From the NCBI GenBank assembly GCA_947375135.1, contig CANCER010000011.1:1-64000 (forward strand): 64,000 nt of DNA, in the 5' to 3' direction. Within the stretch, counting starts at the first letter, position 1, and every line of letters begins with the position of its first letter. The stretch comes from Comamonadaceae bacterium (GTDB lineage: Bacteria; Pseudomonadota; Gammaproteobacteria; Burkholderiales; Burkholderiaceae_C). Positions 46,374 through 60,966 of the stretch are shown here, one piece after another. The notes beneath the pieces were generated by a model. The model was not told where the DNA came from. It was given only the letters and a program-made list of their open reading frames with translations, and did not search any database. A program made the position numbers and the translations under genes.

Positions 46374-46495
46374 GGTTTGTCTCCGTTGATATCGGTGAGG
46401 CAGATGCACGCTTGCTCTGCACTGACGCTATTGTGCCGCCCTCTGCGACATTGCACCCGGACCCGACCGGGACCAATGGTTGTAGAGTAGCTGCC

Positions 46496-53164
<6,669 letters not shown>

Positions 53165-53167
53165 GCC

Positions 53168-54955
53168 TTAAGGAACCACCCATTCCGGCTCACCGGTCAC
53201 GCCGGGAGCATCCGGGTTCAAACGCGCCAGATAGGCCCCTTTGGAGGCAAAGCGCTGGCCCTGCGCCAGACTCAGGCGCGGGTACACCGTGGTGCCGCCG
53301 CGCAAGCGCATTTCTTCCAGGTGCGCCATCTGGGCCTTGGTGATCGCCTCCGCCGCCGCCGCCTGGGCCGGCGTGGTTTGTGTGGTTTGCAGCGGGCGCT
53401 TGTTCATGGGCGCCATCATCATGGCCTGGATTTCTTCCTGCACCTGCAGGGTCTCAAAACCGCCCAGGGTGGATTCGGCCCGCTCGATCAGGTAGTCGGT
53501 GTGCAGGTTATTGAGCATGCCCCGCAAGGTGGACTGCAATGCGCCGGCGGCAAAAAACACCTCGGACTGCAGGCGCAAATCCACCAACGGCACCTGGCTT
53601 CCGGCCAGCCAGGCCTGCAAGCGCTCCACATTGGCCGTGCGCAGCCGGGGCAGCTCCAGCGGCTGCACCAGGGTGGCGTTTTGGCGCCAGGCAGCGGGCA
53701 GTGCCAGTTGCTCATCCCCGGCCAAACGGGCAGAAACCAGCACCCGGGCGGGCGTAGGCGCCAGCGCGGCCAGCGCGGCCACATCCGCCGGCCGCAACCA
53801 CAGCACCAGGGTATCTTGCGCGCCCAGACCGGCTACGGCTGCCTGCACCGTGGCCGGGTCCGCATGGGCGTCCACCTCCTGCAGCGCCAGCTGCGCGGCC
53901 TCTGGGCTGCCCGCCACCAGCGACTGCCGCAGGGCGGCCGCAGCGCTGCGCGCCACGGCGTCAGGGGCAACCAGTTGCACGATACGTCCGCCCCCCGCCT
54001 GAAGTTGGGCCGCCATGACCTGCGCCTCGAGCGCCACACCGGCTGAAAAATACAGGCTGAACTGGCTCTGCGCAGCGTCTGCCGGCACCTTGTCCACACT
54101 GGGGAACCAGCAGGCCACGCGGTGCGCTTCGCAAAAATCCTGCACCGGCTGCCATTCGCCGTTGGACAGGCCGGACACCAGGGCAAACACCGGCTGCTGC
54201 GTTTGGCGTTGCACCAGCTGTTGAGCCCAGCCCTCACTCGGGCCACTGAGCTCCCAGATGTCCAGGGCCCACTTGCGGCGCGACTGCAAACGGCGCTCCT
54301 CTACCGCCATCATTTTTTGGCGCCGGCCCGTCGTCACGTTGAGGTTCATCTGCCGGACCGCCGTGGTCAGCGTGTGGATGAACGCCTGGCGCCGCGCCGG
54401 CTCCACACCCGGCGCAATCACGGTGGCCATGTGGATGGTGTCGCCCACCACGGCCGCCGACATGGCAGGAGACAGGGTTTGCAGATACGCCGCCAGCGCA
54501 CGCAACTGTCCCTCGGTCAGGGCGAAGTGCGGCATGAGCGCGTCCATGGCGCGCCCGTCAGGGTGCTTGCCTTCACGCACAGCGGCAGAAAATGCTTGCG
54601 GGCTGTAGGGCGCGTGCGCCACCGAGATGCGCCGGTCAAACTGCCGGTCCATGCGCACCACCACCGGCTCCCCCCCGCCAAACAGGGCACGGCCACTGAT
54701 GGGTGGTATGCCGGCAGTGCCTTCCACCTGGCCCAGGCCGCTGCGGCGGTGGCAGGTGACGCAAGCAGCGGCGCTGCCGGATACCGCACCGATATCCGGG
54801 CGCAGGCCTTGCAGCGGCTTTCCATCCGGTAGCACGCCCTCCAGGTAAATCCGGCGGCCTGCCGCCACCTCGGCATCGGTGGCGGTCTGCGCCCTGGCGG
54901 GCCAGGCAACAGACAGCAGCAGCGCGAGCAGGACCAGAAGGGATTTCGGTTTCAT
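53168..54955 (-). CDS. Secreted cytochrome c fused to a periplasmic-binding-protein-like domain
   Basis: 595 residues from the ATG at 54955. Signal peptide MKPKSLLVLLALLLSVAWPA with cleavage near ARAQ. A cytochrome c domain occupies about 28-165 with one heme motif CVTCH (65-69) and a plausible distal Met region (DALMPHFALTEGQLRALAAYL). The rest (about 180-595) looks like a type I periplasmic binding fold (MATVIAPGVEPARRQAFIHTL, LVSGLSNGEWQPV), ending in a short tail. It probably accepts electrons in the periplasm. It starts 35 bp after the multicopper oxidase stop in the same operon, paralleling mofA-mofC of Leptothrix, where a c-type heme protein accompanies the Mn-oxidase. That parallel is inference. 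Confidence 0.82.
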   Translation of the reverse strand: MKPKSLLVLLALLLSVAWPARAQTATDAEVAAGRRIYLEGVLPDGKPLQGLRPDIGAVSGSAAACVTCHRRSGLGQVEGTAGIPPISGRALFGGGEPVVVRMDRQFDRRISVAHAPYSPQAFSAAVREGKHPDGRAMDALMPHFALTEGQLRALAAYLQTLSPAMSAAVVGDTIHMATVIAPGVEPARRQAFIHTLTTAVRQMNLNVTTGRRQKMMAVEERRLQSRRKWALDIWELSGPSEGWAQQLVQRQTQQPVFALVSGLSNGEWQPVQDFCEAHRVACWFPSVDKVPADAAQSQFSLYFSAGVALEAQVMAAQLQAGGGRIVQLVAPDAVARSAAAALRQSLVAGSPEAAQLALQEVDAHADPATVQAAVAGLGAQDTLVLWLRPADVAALAALAPTPARVLVSARLAGDEQLALPAAWRQNATLVQPLELPRLRTANVERLQAWLAGSQVPLVDLRLQSEVFFAAGALQSTLRGMLNNLHTDYLIERAESTLGGFETLQVQEEIQAMMMAPMNKRPLQTTQTTPAQAAAAEAITKAQMAHLEEMRLRGGTTVYPRLSLAQGQRFASKGAYLARLNPDAPGVTGEPEWVVP

Positions 54956-54990
54956 TCCAATTGGCACGTCACAGCGTCCGGGCCGGCCGC

Positions 54991-57900
54991 TCAGGGGGCC
55001 GTGACCGACACAGGCGCAGAATACGCCGAGGCGCCCAGCGCATGGGTGGCCGCGACGCGGAAGTAGTACACCGTGCCCTTGGTCAAGCCCGTGGCCAGGT
55101 AGCTGCCCGAACCACCGGTTCCCGCCAGGGGCACAGGCACTGCCGTGGTCACCAGACCGGCGGTAAATGCGCTATTGGTGGCGCGCTGCACCAAGAAGCC
55201 GGTTTCATTGGCAGCCCGGTCCGTCCAGCCCAGCAGCACCGACCGCGTGGCTCCTGGCGTGGCCGTCAGTGCAGTGGGCACGTTGAGTGGCAGCACGGCC
55301 GTTACCGGTTGGGAGGCCACGCCGGTCACCACAGGCTGCACACCTGCAGCCGAAGTCACAGCGGCCACCGTATAGGTGTAGCTTGCCAGGGGCACGGCCG
55401 TGGTGTCGGTGTAGCTCACTGCACCGCCCGCGCCCACCTTCAGGGCGGTGCTACGGGCCGGTGTCGTAAACACCACCCGCACACCGGCCGCGTCGGTACG
55501 CGTCACCTGGAACGCGGTTTCGTTGCTGCTGTTATCCACCCAGCTCAACACGACCGACACACCGCCCGCTGTGTTGGCCGTCAGTCCCGTCGGGGCGGTG
55601 GAAGGCGGTGTGGCCGTGGCCGTATTGGATGGCAACGAGCTGGATACCGTGCTGCCGTTGGTGTTGACCGCAAGCACCTGGTAGTCGTAAGCCGTACCTG
55701 CCACGGCCGAGGCGTCGACGTAGGTGACCAGGGTGCCCTTCGTGGTTTTTGCAGCGGCGCTACGGGCTACCGTAGCCAGCAAACCGAATGTCCCGCTACC
55801 CCGGAGGCTGCGCCAGACCTGGAAGGAGGTTTCGTTGGTGGAGGTGTCGGTCCAGGCCAGCAGGACATTGCCACCATTGGCACCCACGGCCACCAGATTG
55901 GCTGGCGCAGCCACCGTGGTCGCCGCCGTGACGGAGGTCGAACTGCCAGCCGGCCCCACGGTTGCGCCCCGCACGGCTTTCACACGGTACATGTACGTGG
56001 AACCGTCTGCGGTGGTGGTGTCGACGTAGCCCGTACTGTCGGCTGGCAAGGTGCTGCTCAAGACGACCCAGGCCGCTGCGGGGGCTGCACATGCCGTGCC
56101 GTTGCAACGCTCCACGGTATAGGACGCTGCCCCGGTGGCGGTGTTCGTCCAGTTGACGGTGGTCTGCGGTACACCGTTGACCGTGGTCGACTGGGCGTTC
56201 ACCACCGGTGCGAGCAGGGCAAACTTCAGCGTAAACGGGGCGCTGGCTATGTCACCCGCTTCATTGACTGCGACCACCCGGTACCGGTAGTCGGTGATGG
56301 CCGCCAGCGTGCTAGGGTCCTGGAAGCTGGTGGCATTGGCCAAGGTATTGACGCGGGAATCCACCACGGGAGACGCGGCTGCGAGGGCCACGAAGCTGCC
56401 CACCGTGGCCGTTGCACCGCTGCCGGTGACCGCCGCACGTTCGACACGGAAGCCGATTTCATTCTGGGTATTGCCCTTGGTGGCGGCATTGGCGTTGCCG
56501 AAGCTGTCGGTCGCGGGGGTCGGGTCGGTCCAGGTGACCTTGCCGCTGGCATCCACCGCCACATTGCCGGGCGCGGCCGGTGCCGTAACGACCGGGAAGA
56601 AGGCCATGGGACGCATCAGGTCGTTTTCTTCGTGGCCCAGGATGTGGCAGTGCCAGACGTATTCCCAACCGAAGTTGGTGCGGATGTTGGCCACAGGCTG
56701 CGCCATGGGCTGGCCATACGCCGGGCTGGAGGCATCCAGGTTCAACTGGTTGAACGCGAACGGGACGGTGCTGCCATCCGTGTACGCGGTGCCGTACAGC
56801 ACGTCATTGGCCGTGGCACCGTCCTTCATGGTCGGGTCCAGCGGGCGCACGCTGTTGGGCAGGCCAAAGGGCAGCTGCGGTGTCTTGGGCTTGAGGGCGA
56901 CGATGATGTCTGCACCCGGCCAGTTCTTCACGTTTTCTTTCCAGCCCATTTCATCTGCCGCAGGCGGCTGCAAGGTGCCATCCATCAAACGGTGGGCCAG
57001 CACTTGCACGTTGAAGAGGTGGAAGTGCATCGGGTGGTTGTCCACGTCGTAGTTCTTGATCCACCAGTACTGCACCTCGTCCGGATGGAGGATTTCGGTC
57101 GGTGCGTCAATGTAGGACAGGGGAGTCGCCCCGACAGTCCCCGGCAGTTCCGTGCCCAGCTGCGCAATCAGGCGTCCGATATTGGAGTCGGTATAGCCGC
57201 TGATCGTTTTCACCTTGAGCGTCACCTTGGCGCCACTGGCCAGCACCATTTCGTTGCTGGCCGCATCCACCGATTGGGGCATGGCCTGTTCGATGTGCGG
57301 CTCTGCCACGGCGGCATAAGCCTTGGGCAACTCAGTGGCCAGCGCGCCACCGCTTCCGGTCGGGTCATAGGCTGCTTCAGGCGCGGCGCCATTGGCCAGT
57401 GTGGCGGCCACGCGGATTTGCATGAGCGTGCGGGTGTTCGGGCCGTAACCGGCCAGGGTGCCGGGGGCACCACCGGCGGCCGTCTGATCGGCGTTGCCGG
57501 TGTAGTAGTCGTAACGCGGATCGCCGCCGGGCACGGGTGCCGTGCCGTCGTTGTACATGATCAGGGTCTGGCCCGCGAACTGCGAAAAATCGATCACGGT
57601 ATCGGCCCGCTCGGCGGTGCCGAGGTAGAAGTCACCGGCCAGCTCTTCGCCGTTGATGTCAAAACGCATCAGGGTGGGCTGGTGCACCACAGGGTGGGGC
57701 AAAAAGCCGGTCTCGTTGCCAAACTGGATGATGCTGGGGCCGGCGGTGGACGGATCGGGAACCCCGGCCGGATCGGTCGATGTGTTGACAAAGCCGTTCG
57801 CTCCGGTTCCATCGCGCGGGACGATGGTGAGTTCGGTGTCCGCTGCGGTGGTCTTGCCGGTCAAGGGGTCTGTCACGGGCGCCGAGGGGGCCGCCTTCCA

Positions 57901-59541
57901 GAGCGAGATGTTGAAGTAGCGGTCATTGGCGCCATTCAGGAAGCGCACGCGGTAAGCCTTGGGTTCCACATGCATCACCGGGTAGGCCACCCCGTTGATC
58001 ACCGGGGTGTCCATGTAGGACTCGGGCGTTGCGGAGGGGCCCTTGCCGGCGGTACCGTCGGCATTGGAGCCGTCGGGAAAGGCGACCATGCCGTAGTCGG
58101 GGTCCAGGCGTGTGGCGCCCACCTTGGGCGGCAGGTAGGTGCCGTCCAGGTCATTGACAGCGTAGTCCCAGCGCCCGGCAGGATTGGTGCCTGCGCTTGC
58201 CGAGTCAAAGCCGGCGGCGGGTGGCGTGGTTCCCCACAACTGGAAGGGTTCGTACACGTGCGGGAACCACAGGTCGCCGGGTTGCCCCCAGGCCTTGGTG
58301 TCCCACTTGGCGTCTTGTACGCCAATGTCGGCGGGGACAAAGGTCTTGTCCTGAATCACCAACAGGATTTGGTCCAGCAGCGTGTTGGGGATGGCTTTGC
58401 TGATGGTTTGGCCATTCACGGTGCCGCCATTGAGCAGCGCCATTTCCGCCGCATCCATGAGGAAGTAGCTGGCCGCTTCGCCACCATAGGCGTTCTGGCG
58501 CGTCAGGCCGAAGGTGTGGTCGTGGTACCACATCAGGCGGGCGCTCTGGTCGTTGGGATAGAAGAGGGTGAGCGCGCCCTCACCCGGAAAAGGCATGTCG
58601 GGCACGTTCATCTGGCGGTTGCCGGATTTGTACGGTGAAGGGTCTGCCGCGGGGGTGATCCATTGGTGCGGGGTGCCGTCACTGATCCAGGGCGAGTCGC
58701 CACCGTGCAGGTGGAACGACACCCGGTTTTGCGGGTATTTATCGGGCGTCGCGCCCCCAGTCGGTGCCAGGCCGGCGCCGCCCAGCGACTCGTCCACCGG
58801 CAAAAAGATGTCGCCATTGCGGGCCGTTACCTTGCCTTGGGCATCCCGTGTGGCACGGCCTGGCGGTAACAGGTTGACCATCTGGGCGCGCACCGGGGTG
58901 CCCGAATGGGTCATGAGGGTGGGGCCCAGGTAGCTGGGCTTGTTGTAGGCGTAAACCTGCTCGCCGGCCGGGTTGGCTGTCGTTTTGCTACCCGGCCAGG
59001 TGATGGCGCTGCCATCCGGATAGGTCAACGCGACGGGGGCCGGCAGCGTCTGCTGGGTGACCGCATCCAGTGCTGTGGAGGGGGGGTTGACGGCTCCGGC
59101 CGGACGCTCGCTCAGCCGGGGGTAAAGCTGCACGTAACCCCGCAGCGTTGTGGCCTTTTGCAGGTCACTGTGCATGCGCTGCGCGTGCTCCACGACACCA
59201 ATGATGTAGTAGTCCGAACCGGGGTAGGTGGTCTTGTCTGCAACGCCCACTGCCATGTACTCGCCCGGCTGGCCGCCGGCAAAGGTGTTGGTTTTTGCTG
59301 CGGTCAGGCCGGGCAGTGTGTCCACAAACTTGCGCAACGCGGGGCTGTTGGCGTAGTAGGTGTTGATGGTGTTGCCGGCGCAGGCCGCCAGGGGCGACAC
59401 CCCGTCCAGACACACTTTGCCGGGACCGGCATGGGCCGACATCGACGCCAGCGCCATGCTCACCAGGGCGGCCGAAGTCAAGCGCTTGCTACGCGCTGCC
59501 TGGCTGCGCTTTTCATAACCCCGATTTATTTTTTCAAACAT
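54991..59541 (-). CDS. Secreted multicopper oxidase with C-terminal fibronectin type III repeats (MofA-like candidate)
   Basis: 1516 residues from the ATG at 59541 (MFEKINRG), with a signal peptide (hydrophobic LTSAALVSMALASM, cleavage near AHA-GPG). All four copper motifs are present: SFHLHGG (about 276-282), MWYHDH (about 337-342), HPMHFHLF (about 833-840) and WHCHILGHEENDLMRP (about 960-975), giving complete type 1, 2 and 3 sites with an axial Met. About 490 residues separate motifs 2 and 3, longer than in CotA or CueO. After about residue 990 come roughly five Fn3-like repeats (for example APANLVAVGANGGNVLLAW and APTGLTANTAGGVSVVLSW) to the C terminus. Size, secretion and copper sites resemble bacterial Mn(II)-oxidising MCOs such as MofA; laccase-like oxidation of phenols is the alternative. 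Confidence 0.88.
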   Translation of the reverse strand: MFEKINRGYEKRSQAARSKRLTSAALVSMALASMSAHAGPGKVCLDGVSPLAACAGNTINTYYANSPALRKFVDTLPGLTAAKTNTFAGGQPGEYMAVGVADKTTYPGSDYYIIGVVEHAQRMHSDLQKATTLRGYVQLYPRLSERPAGAVNPPSTALDAVTQQTLPAPVALTYPDGSAITWPGSKTTANPAGEQVYAYNKPSYLGPTLMTHSGTPVRAQMVNLLPPGRATRDAQGKVTARNGDIFLPVDESLGGAGLAPTGGATPDKYPQNRVSFHLHGGDSPWISDGTPHQWITPAADPSPYKSGNRQMNVPDMPFPGEGALTLFYPNDQSARLMWYHDHTFGLTRQNAYGGEAASYFLMDAAEMALLNGGTVNGQTISKAIPNTLLDQILLVIQDKTFVPADIGVQDAKWDTKAWGQPGDLWFPHVYEPFQLWGTTPPAAGFDSASAGTNPAGRWDYAVNDLDGTYLPPKVGATRLDPDYGMVAFPDGSNADGTAGKGPSATPESYMDTPVINGVAYPVMHVEPKAYRVRFLNGANDRYFNISLWKAAPSAPVTDPLTGKTTAADTELTIVPRDGTGANGFVNTSTDPAGVPDPSTAGPSIIQFGNETGFLPHPVVHQPTLMRFDINGEELAGDFYLGTAERADTVIDFSQFAGQTLIMYNDGTAPVPGGDPRYDYYTGNADQTAAGGAPGTLAGYGPNTRTLMQIRVAATLANGAAPEAAYDPTGSGGALATELPKAYAAVAEPHIEQAMPQSVDAASNEMVLASGAKVTLKVKTISGYTDSNIGRLIAQLGTELPGTVGATPLSYIDAPTEILHPDEVQYWWIKNYDVDNHPMHFHLFNVQVLAHRLMDGTLQPPAADEMGWKENVKNWPGADIIVALKPKTPQLPFGLPNSVRPLDPTMKDGATANDVLYGTAYTDGSTVPFAFNQLNLDASSPAYGQPMAQPVANIRTNFGWEYVWHCHILGHEENDLMRPMAFFPVVTAPAAPGNVAVDASGKVTWTDPTPATDSFGNANAATKGNTQNEIGFRVERAAVTGSGATATVGSFVALAAASPVVDSRVNTLANATSFQDPSTLAAITDYRYRVVAVNEAGDIASAPFTLKFALLAPVVNAQSTTVNGVPQTTVNWTNTATGAASYTVERCNGTACAAPAAAWVVLSSTLPADSTGYVDTTTADGSTYMYRVKAVRGATVGPAGSSTSVTAATTVAAPANLVAVGANGGNVLLAWTDTSTNETSFQVWRSLRGSGTFGLLATVARSAAAKTTKGTLVTYVDASAVAGTAYDYQVLAVNTNGSTVSSSLPSNTATATPPSTAPTGLTANTAGGVSVVLSWVDNSSNETAFQVTRTDAAGVRVVFTTPARSTALKVGAGGAVSYTDTTAVPLASYTYTVAAVTSAAGVQPVVTGVASQPVTAVLPLNVPTALTATPGATRSVLLGWTDRAANETGFLVQRATNSAFTAGLVTTAVPVPLAGTGGSGSYLATGLTKGTVYYFRVAATHALGASAYSAPVSVTAP

Positions 59542-59581
59542 TGCTGAATATTCCACTGGCAATGCACGAGAAGTCCAAAAG

Positions 59582-59826: not shown

Positions 59827-60966
59827 TCAGGGTGTGGGCTTGCGCGCTACCGGCACACGCATGTCGTCCAGGTAGTCATGCGCGATGTTGATGCTGGAAA
59901 CCACACCCACGCTGTGCAGGTTTTCCTCAAGCCAATGGGCCGCACAGGTCCGGCCCAGATCGCGCAGACGGTAAATCAGATCGGCACTGGTTTCGGCCTT
60001 GCTCGATGCGGGGTAAGCATCCAGTTCCTTGCCGCCGTCTATGCGGTGCATGAGCACATCTTTGTAGTGCGTAGGGTCCAGCTTGCCCTCGGCCAGCAGG
60101 CGCTTCACAAAATCGATGGCGCGCATCTCGGCAATCAGGGCCGAGTTGAAGGTGATCTCGTTGAGCCGGTCCAGAATGTCCGCCGAGGTCGTGGGCACAT
60201 CGTGACGCCGGATCGGATTGATCTGCACCAACACCACATCCCGGCTGTCGCAGTTGTAGACCAGGGGGTGAATCGCCGGGTTGCCGGAATAGCCGCCATC
60301 CCAGTAGTGCTCGCCTTCGACCTCCACGGCCTGAAACACCGTGGGCAGGCAGGCCGAGGCCATCACCGCTTTGGCCGTCAGGCGATTGCCGGAGAAGATT
60401 TCGGCCTTGCCTGTGCTGACTTTGGTGGCCAGCACAAACACCTTCAAACCTTGGTAGGCGGCAAGGCGCTCAAAGTCGATTTGCCGCTCCAGAAAATCCT
60501 TGAGGGGGTTGATGTCCAGCGGGTTGGTCTGGTAGGGGGAAAAGGACTTGCCCCAGAAGCTGGCCATGGCATCGCTCACCATTTGCCCCGGGGAGGGGTG
60601 TCCGGCCAGCGCAGCCAGGCCGCCAAACAAGAGGTCAAAAGGCACACGCTGCGCATTGGAGATGGTGTTTTGAAGAGCCCCCATGGACACCACCCCGTCC
60701 CAGAACGCCTTGAGGGAGGCGCGTGCCGATTGGCGCATCTCACCCACCGGTTTTCCCTCAGCCTGCGCCAGGCCATGGGCCATGGCCACCGCATTCATGG
60801 CACCGGCACTGGTGCCGCTGATGCCCTCAAAGCCCAGCCGGCCATCCTCCAGCAAGGTGTCCAACACGCCCCAGGTAAAGGCGCCGTGCGAGCCGCCACC
60901 CTGCAAGGCCAGGTTGATGGGGCCATGGGAGGCCGGGTCAGGATGGCTGGATTGCAGTGTGGTCAT
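59827..60966 (-). CDS. Patatin-like phospholipase/acyl hydrolase
   Basis: A 379-residue patatin-fold hydrolase. The oxyanion motif GGGSHGAFTWG (about 26-36), the nucleophile elbow GTSAG (catalytic Ser) and DGGYSGN (catalytic Asp) are all present. No signal peptide is evident, so it probably acts on membrane lipids or stored polyesters from the cytoplasmic side. It is monocistronic by appearance, divergent from the azoreductase. Family certain, substrate not. Confidence 0.9.
   Translation of the reverse strand: MTTLQSSHPDPASHGPINLALQGGGSHGAFTWGVLDTLLEDGRLGFEGISGTSAGAMNAVAMAHGLAQAEGKPVGEMRQSARASLKAFWDGVVSMGALQNTISNAQRVPFDLLFGGLAALAGHPSPGQMVSDAMASFWGKSFSPYQTNPLDINPLKDFLERQIDFERLAAYQGLKVFVLATKVSTGKAEIFSGNRLTAKAVMASACLPTVFQAVEVEGEHYWDGGYSGNPAIHPLVYNCDSRDVVLVQINPIRRHDVPTTSADILDRLNEITFNSALIAEMRAIDFVKRLLAEGKLDPTHYKDVLMHRIDGGKELDAYPASSKAETSADLIYRLRDLGRTCAAHWLEENLHSVGVVSSINIAHDYLDDMRVPVARKPTP

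Follow-up and report, generated by a model that had tools for sequence, protein, structure and literature searches.

Closest described systems

Among the described systems closest to the oxidase studied here are MofA of Leptothrix discophora SS-1, encoded in mofABC, and OmpB of Geobacter sulfurreducens (GSU1394). MofA is likewise a large exported multicopper oxidase (MCO) from the Burkholderiales with a MofC-type cytochrome partner, and the work of Bocioaga in 2014 is said to have found that disruption of mofA did not abolish Mn oxidation. In published accounts MofA is termed putative or implicated, the functions of mofABC have not been experimentally elucidated and an iron role is considered possible (PMC5566968, PMC11412304), which is weaker than the original prediction for this locus, according to which MofA drives Mn(II) oxidation. 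MofC combines a cytochrome c with a periplasmic binding domain. It is described as the partner protein of MofA and also, though in a more distant form, of OmpB from Geobacter, itself an exported MCO homologous to MofA that bears a fibronectin type III (Fn3) domain and has a MofC homolog in its gene cluster, with no mofB (PMC5566968).

The nearest solved structures are those of CotA laccase and the bilirubin oxidase of Myrothecium, with which the oxidase reported here has in common the three-cupredoxin fold and the copper motifs. Mn(II) oxidation has also been linked to further large MCOs, MnxG/McoA of Pseudomonas putida and the MnxG of Bacillus, likened here by description; no MofC-type partner of these is known to us.

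The window oxidase

The oxidase gene lies in a window of 64,000 nucleotides, the whole stretch of DNA that was analysed, from a Comamonadaceae bacterium, and its features are the following:

54991..59541 (-), secreted OmpB/MofA-family multicopper oxidase, 1516 aa (sequence, profile search, tree, predicted fold)
59428..59541 (-), Sec-type signal peptide, residues 1-38 (by inspection)
56575..59424 (-), three-cupredoxin multicopper oxidase core, residues 40-989 (alignment, profile, model)
58702..58713 (-), copper motif HLHG with H277 and H279 (alignment)
58516..58530 (-), copper motif WYHDH with H340 and H342 (alignment)
57019..57036 (-), copper motif HPMHFH with H836 (type 1), H839 and H841 (alignment)
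56614..56652 (-), copper motif HCHILGHEENDLM with H964, C965 (type 1), H966, H970 (type 1) and the clade-specific axial L975 (alignment)
54994..56583 (-), five Fn3-like repeats, residues 987-1108, 1109-1210, 1211-1314, 1315-1419 and 1420-1516 (Pfam and manual partition)

The reading frame is intact from its ATG start and its 1516 residues agree with the predicted length of over 1500; an alternative in-frame TTG at 59562 would lengthen the protein by seven codons. The N-terminus resembles a Sec-type signal peptide (KR...LTSAALVSMALASMSAHA before G; by inspection only), and the four copper motifs, placed in the family order, hold 11 of 11 copper ligands, ten His and one Cys, which are kept across the aligned relatives. 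Together with a Cu-oxidase_2 match of 31.3 bits against a cut-off of 20.4 (Pfam), these observations bore out the proposal of a secreted MCO with all copper ligands. The AlphaFold model of the core reached a pTM of 0.88 and its top PDB matches in a fold search were CotA and bilirubin oxidase (E down to 5.8e-37), the same solved structures to which the family profile was nearest (E 5e-68). Identity to these enzymes in the structural alignment was about 14-19%, and the window oxidase differs from them in a core nearly twice as long, the Fn3 tail and the cytochrome partner. Grouping with laccases or bilirubin oxidases had been put forward as an argument against Mn oxidation; such a grouping was seen, but it is non-discriminating, because sequence and fold alike bring the entire OmpB/MofA family closest to CotA and bilirubin oxidase, and because a CotA with Mn oxidase activity has been reported (PMC3618234).

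The comparison of the window gene with its nearest homolog, an 85%-identical copy in a congener, gave dN/dS values of 0.05-0.16 depending on the method, which indicates that the gene is under purifying selection. The Rfam scan of the window returned no RNA family, the promoter scan returned one weak site only, at chance level, and a tblastn search of the plasmid collection found no family member, only distant multicopper oxidases below 32% identity. Upstream of the oxidase and on the same strand, a patatin-like phospholipase is encoded at 59827-60966 (-), with no sign of belonging to the oxidase unit.

The tail gave an fn3 match of 54.6 bits (cut-off 25) with three significant stretches in Pfam, and manual partition of residues 987-1516 divided it into five repeats of 97-122 aa each, in line with the "about five" of the original prediction. 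The combination of an MCO core with tandem Fn3 repeats had been called unusual; it is instead the norm for the OmpB/MofA family, as 45 of the 65 family tails scanned contain an fn3 Pfam match, and any novelty of the tail or of the protein length was therefore dropped. Moreover, the repeat count varies within the seven-sequence clade of the window protein, which means that the tail does not act as a precisely dimensioned component.

The MofC-like partner and the two-gene unit

Downstream of the oxidase, two features were recognized:

53168..54967 (-), MofC-like protein of 599 aa with a one-haem cytochrome c (CVTCH) and a type-I periplasmic-binding-protein domain (Pfam, predicted fold)
54749..54763 (-), haem c attachment motif CVTCH of the MofC-like protein (motif)

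The MofC-like gene begins 23 bp after the oxidase stop, on the same strand; the original prediction overlooked both this gene and the mof operon with the paralog, which lies at another site of the genome. The product of the MofC-like gene carries a single CxxCH haem motif and is predicted to adopt a type-I periplasmic-binding-protein fold, and Pfam matches among its relatives were to Cytochrom_C in 23/25 and to Peripla_BP_6 in 16/25. Five relatives (L017, L018, L019, L035, L036) share with the window the oxidase-mofC pair without mofB, while for a sixth (L063) the contig ends. Neither the window locus nor any of the five relatives having both genes contains mofB; SCO genes are likewise missing from the window locus, and type II secretion system (T2SS) genes from the entire window. 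The MofC and oxidase families co-occur across 61 genomes of the genus: both were present in eight, each alone in one and neither in 51 (Fisher p 3e-8, with genomes counted as independent despite kinship).

The mofC gene converges, with 3 bp between the stops, on the gene of a 2250-aa fusion protein (46412-53164, +) that joins a Ser/Thr kinase, an AAA ATPase, a GAF domain, a histidine kinase, two receivers and an Hpt domain.

The paralogous mof operon and type II secretion

The host encodes a second oxidase of the family on another contig (C6), which is more MofA-like than the window protein, within the following region:

L016:8438-19789 and L030:29-6924 (host contig C6), complete mof operon running into T2SS genes

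The gene order is mofA (1816 aa), mofB (FKBP-type isomerase), mofC, the gene of a small exported protein and that of an SCO copper chaperone, after which come gspG, gspF, gspE and the secretin. The published mof operon of Rubrivivax A210 has the same gene set (PMC8218464); thus, the MofA of this host, if there is one, is the C6 gene and not the window gene. In fact, compared by description, the C6 locus fits MofA better, whereas the window oxidase has no adjoining mofB, lacks the glycine/tyrosine-rich insert that precedes the third cupredoxin domain in the C6 paralog, and carries an axial Leu where the paralog has Phe. An assignment of the window oxidase as MofA proper was rejected, since no mofB separates it from mofC and mofB sits instead by the C6 paralog. 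The predicted tie to MofA therefore holds for the family, the kind of cytochrome partner and the order shared with Leptothrix, but not for the gene itself.

An identification with OmpB was likewise rejected. The putative iron-binding EXXE motif, stated for OmpB and not for the wider OmpB/MofA family, occurs 0 times in the 1516 aa of the window oxidase, with about one occurrence expected by shuffling. The window oxidase also differs from OmpB, which is tied to Fe(III) oxide reduction, in having no adjacent SCO gene.

T2SS genes adjoin mof operons at six loci, the host's own included, with similar arrangements in L021, L024, L026, L027 and L050, and OmpB is reported as T2SS-secreted (Mehta 2006).

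Family placement and the axial leucine

The window oxidase almost certainly belongs to the OmpB/MofA family of exported multicopper oxidases, kinship being judged by the family profile, operon layout and published descriptions and not by authentic MofA, OmpB, MnxG, McoA or MoxA sequences. A scan of named genomes gave 545 confirmed stretches, of which the best 80 were taken as family loci; those listed come from Pseudomonadota, Geobacteraceae, other Thermodesulfobacteriota, Acidobacteriota, Chloroflexota, Bacillota, Actinomycetota and archaea. The protein, odd at first sight, is thus one of a widespread family, for which the collection of bacterial and archaeal genomes yielded over 500 matching stretches. 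Very long members with intact copper motifs were also observed, at L055:9902-19198 and at L186/L187 (G719:C1, about 1516468-1530420), with open frames of 3099 and 4651 residues, respectively.

Trees were built from 91 and from 31 cores, and in them the window protein formed a clade of seven sequences, with 100/100 support and a long branch, together with six others, all from betaproteobacterial or unassigned-proteobacterial MAGs. This clade sits among MofA-operon oxidases, in a mainly betaproteobacterial part of the tree that holds mofA-mofB-mofC loci; the deeper forks are weak, and no exact sister of the window protein stands out. The axial residue of the type 1 copper site is Leu in 7/7 members of the clade, whereas the other 86 sequences read divide into 43 with Phe and 43 with Met. 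A non-coordinating axial residue raises the potential of type 1 copper, and the Leu is accordingly predicted from the sequence to give a high-potential site. Such a site would suit substrates that are hard to oxidise, Mn(II) among them, although the Phe found elsewhere in the betaproteobacterial group should have much the same effect. That the axial-Leu clade represents a functionally separate enzyme, paired only with MofC and exchanging electrons with the cytochrome, is a very improbable extension. If true, the axial-Leu oxidase and its cytochrome would link a surface mineral or dissolved metal to the periplasmic electron chain, and not simply reduce O2 alone.

Copper-less MofA paralogs

Multicopper oxidases have a known copper-less relative in SufI/FtsP. 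In four loci of the present family, a full-length MofA homolog without copper ligands directly follows an intact MofA:

L021:14096-19900 (+), MofA-like paralog without copper ligands
L024:2087-8206 (+), MofA-like paralog without copper ligands
L057:4374-11138 (+), MofA-like paralog without copper ligands
L059:14106-19079 (+), MofA-like paralog without copper ligands

All copper motifs are gone from these proteins, in much the same way in each. They form one clade, sister to the clade of their intact partners (100/100), and their dN/dS of about 0.14-0.20 reflects purifying selection, with the same constraint as in the intact ones. The copper-less paralog looks like a conserved pseudo-oxidase partner, and the literature consulted on the family gave no account of an intact and a copper-less MofA in conserved tandem. 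When 399 genomes of the order were searched, no copper-less paralogs came up beyond the known loci, and the only genome newly added by that search has intact copper motifs.

Proposed mechanism and alternative readings

On balance, the locus is best explained as a member of the OmpB/MofA family from its own betaproteobacterial subclade, paired in a unit of two genes with a MofC-like protein that joins cytochrome and periplasmic-binding domains, an explanation held with guarded confidence. Established here are the ligand set, the predicted fold, the family, the operon-like pair and its conservation, the purifying selection and the Fn3 tail. The oxidase would be exported by Sec and then probably by a type II secretion system, as suggested by the T2SS genes next to mof operons at six loci and by the reported secretion of OmpB. 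From the ligand set and standard multicopper oxidase chemistry, a reduced metal, Mn(II) or Fe(II), would give single electrons to the high-potential type 1 copper (H836, C965, H970 and the axial Leu), from which they would pass to the trinuclear cluster for the four-electron reduction of O2 to water. The Fn3 tail may serve as a spacer or adhesive keeping the enzyme at the cell surface, on a polysaccharide or on a mineral, and MofC may be an auxiliary partner in electron transfer or in maturation or sensing.

That the window oxidase oxidises a metal, Mn or Fe, is considered somewhat probable, whereas Mn(II) as its main substrate is rather doubtful. We know of no residue signature for Mn(II) that could be tested, and nothing in the sequence decides between Mn and Fe. 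The host has three MtrB/PioB-type porins, each near a decahaem cytochrome (L171, L172 and L173, on host contigs C21, C13 and C44), one of them also near a 9-haem protein, and these clusters make extracellular electron transfer likely in this organism. That the window protein oxidises Mn(II) is plausible, but oxidation of Fe(II) or some other metal reaction outside the cell would fit equally well, because the role of MofA is unproven, OmpB functions in the reduction of Fe(III) and three such clusters are found in the host.

A dedicated Mn(II) oxidase forming Mn(III/IV) oxide at the cell surface would agree with a family and partner that match MofABC, implicated in Mn oxidation, with the placement of MofA homologs in the Mn-oxidising MCO cluster (PMC8218464) and with the predicted high-potential type 1 site. 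Yet the role of MofA is itself putative, a paralog closer to MofA, with its complete operon, is already present in the host, and MCO gene content and Mn phenotype do not match in the Sphaerotilus-Leptothrix group (PMC13386937); given this mismatch, the putative status of MofA, the part of OmpB in Fe(III) reduction and the MtrB clusters of the host, this reading is kept as a tentative one. The animal-haem-peroxidase type of Mn oxidase had no match in the host, but none in the control genomes either, which deprives this negative of weight. An equally tentative place is given to an Fe(II) oxidase, or to an OmpB-like component of extracellular electron transfer acting with MofC and Mtr-type conduits, for which the haem motif in MofC and the three MtrB/decahaem clusters speak, together with the need for Geobacter OmpB in the reduction of insoluble Fe(III) (PMC5566968) and the strong expression of mofA in iron-rich L. 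ochracea mats (PMC11412304). It is weakened by the missing EXXE motif and by the location of the Mtr clusters on other contigs, unlinked to the oxidase-mofC pair. Against the favoured explanation as a metal oxidase count the tie of the family member OmpB to Fe(III) reduction and not to metal oxidation, the lack of mofB, SCO and T2SS genes at the locus, and the fact that Rhodoferax, the genus named for a close relative of the window gene, is mainly known for metal reduction (PMC12569786).

The proximity of the core to CotA and bilirubin oxidase would suit an ordinary extracellular laccase or CotA-like phenol oxidase, or a copper-detoxifying oxidase, as would the finding that no other Cu-oxidase_2 or Cu-oxidase_3 protein was detected in the 90%-complete host genome besides the window oxidase and its paralog. 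The conserved cytochrome partner, the very large Fn3-tailed layout common to OmpB/MofA and the long inserts relative to 500-aa laccases nevertheless make such an enzyme unlikely.

For the OmpB/MofA family, the question is whether the substrate is manganese, iron or something else. A unit of oxidase and MofC with an axial Leu and without mofB, SCO or secretion genes is a small testable system for that question.
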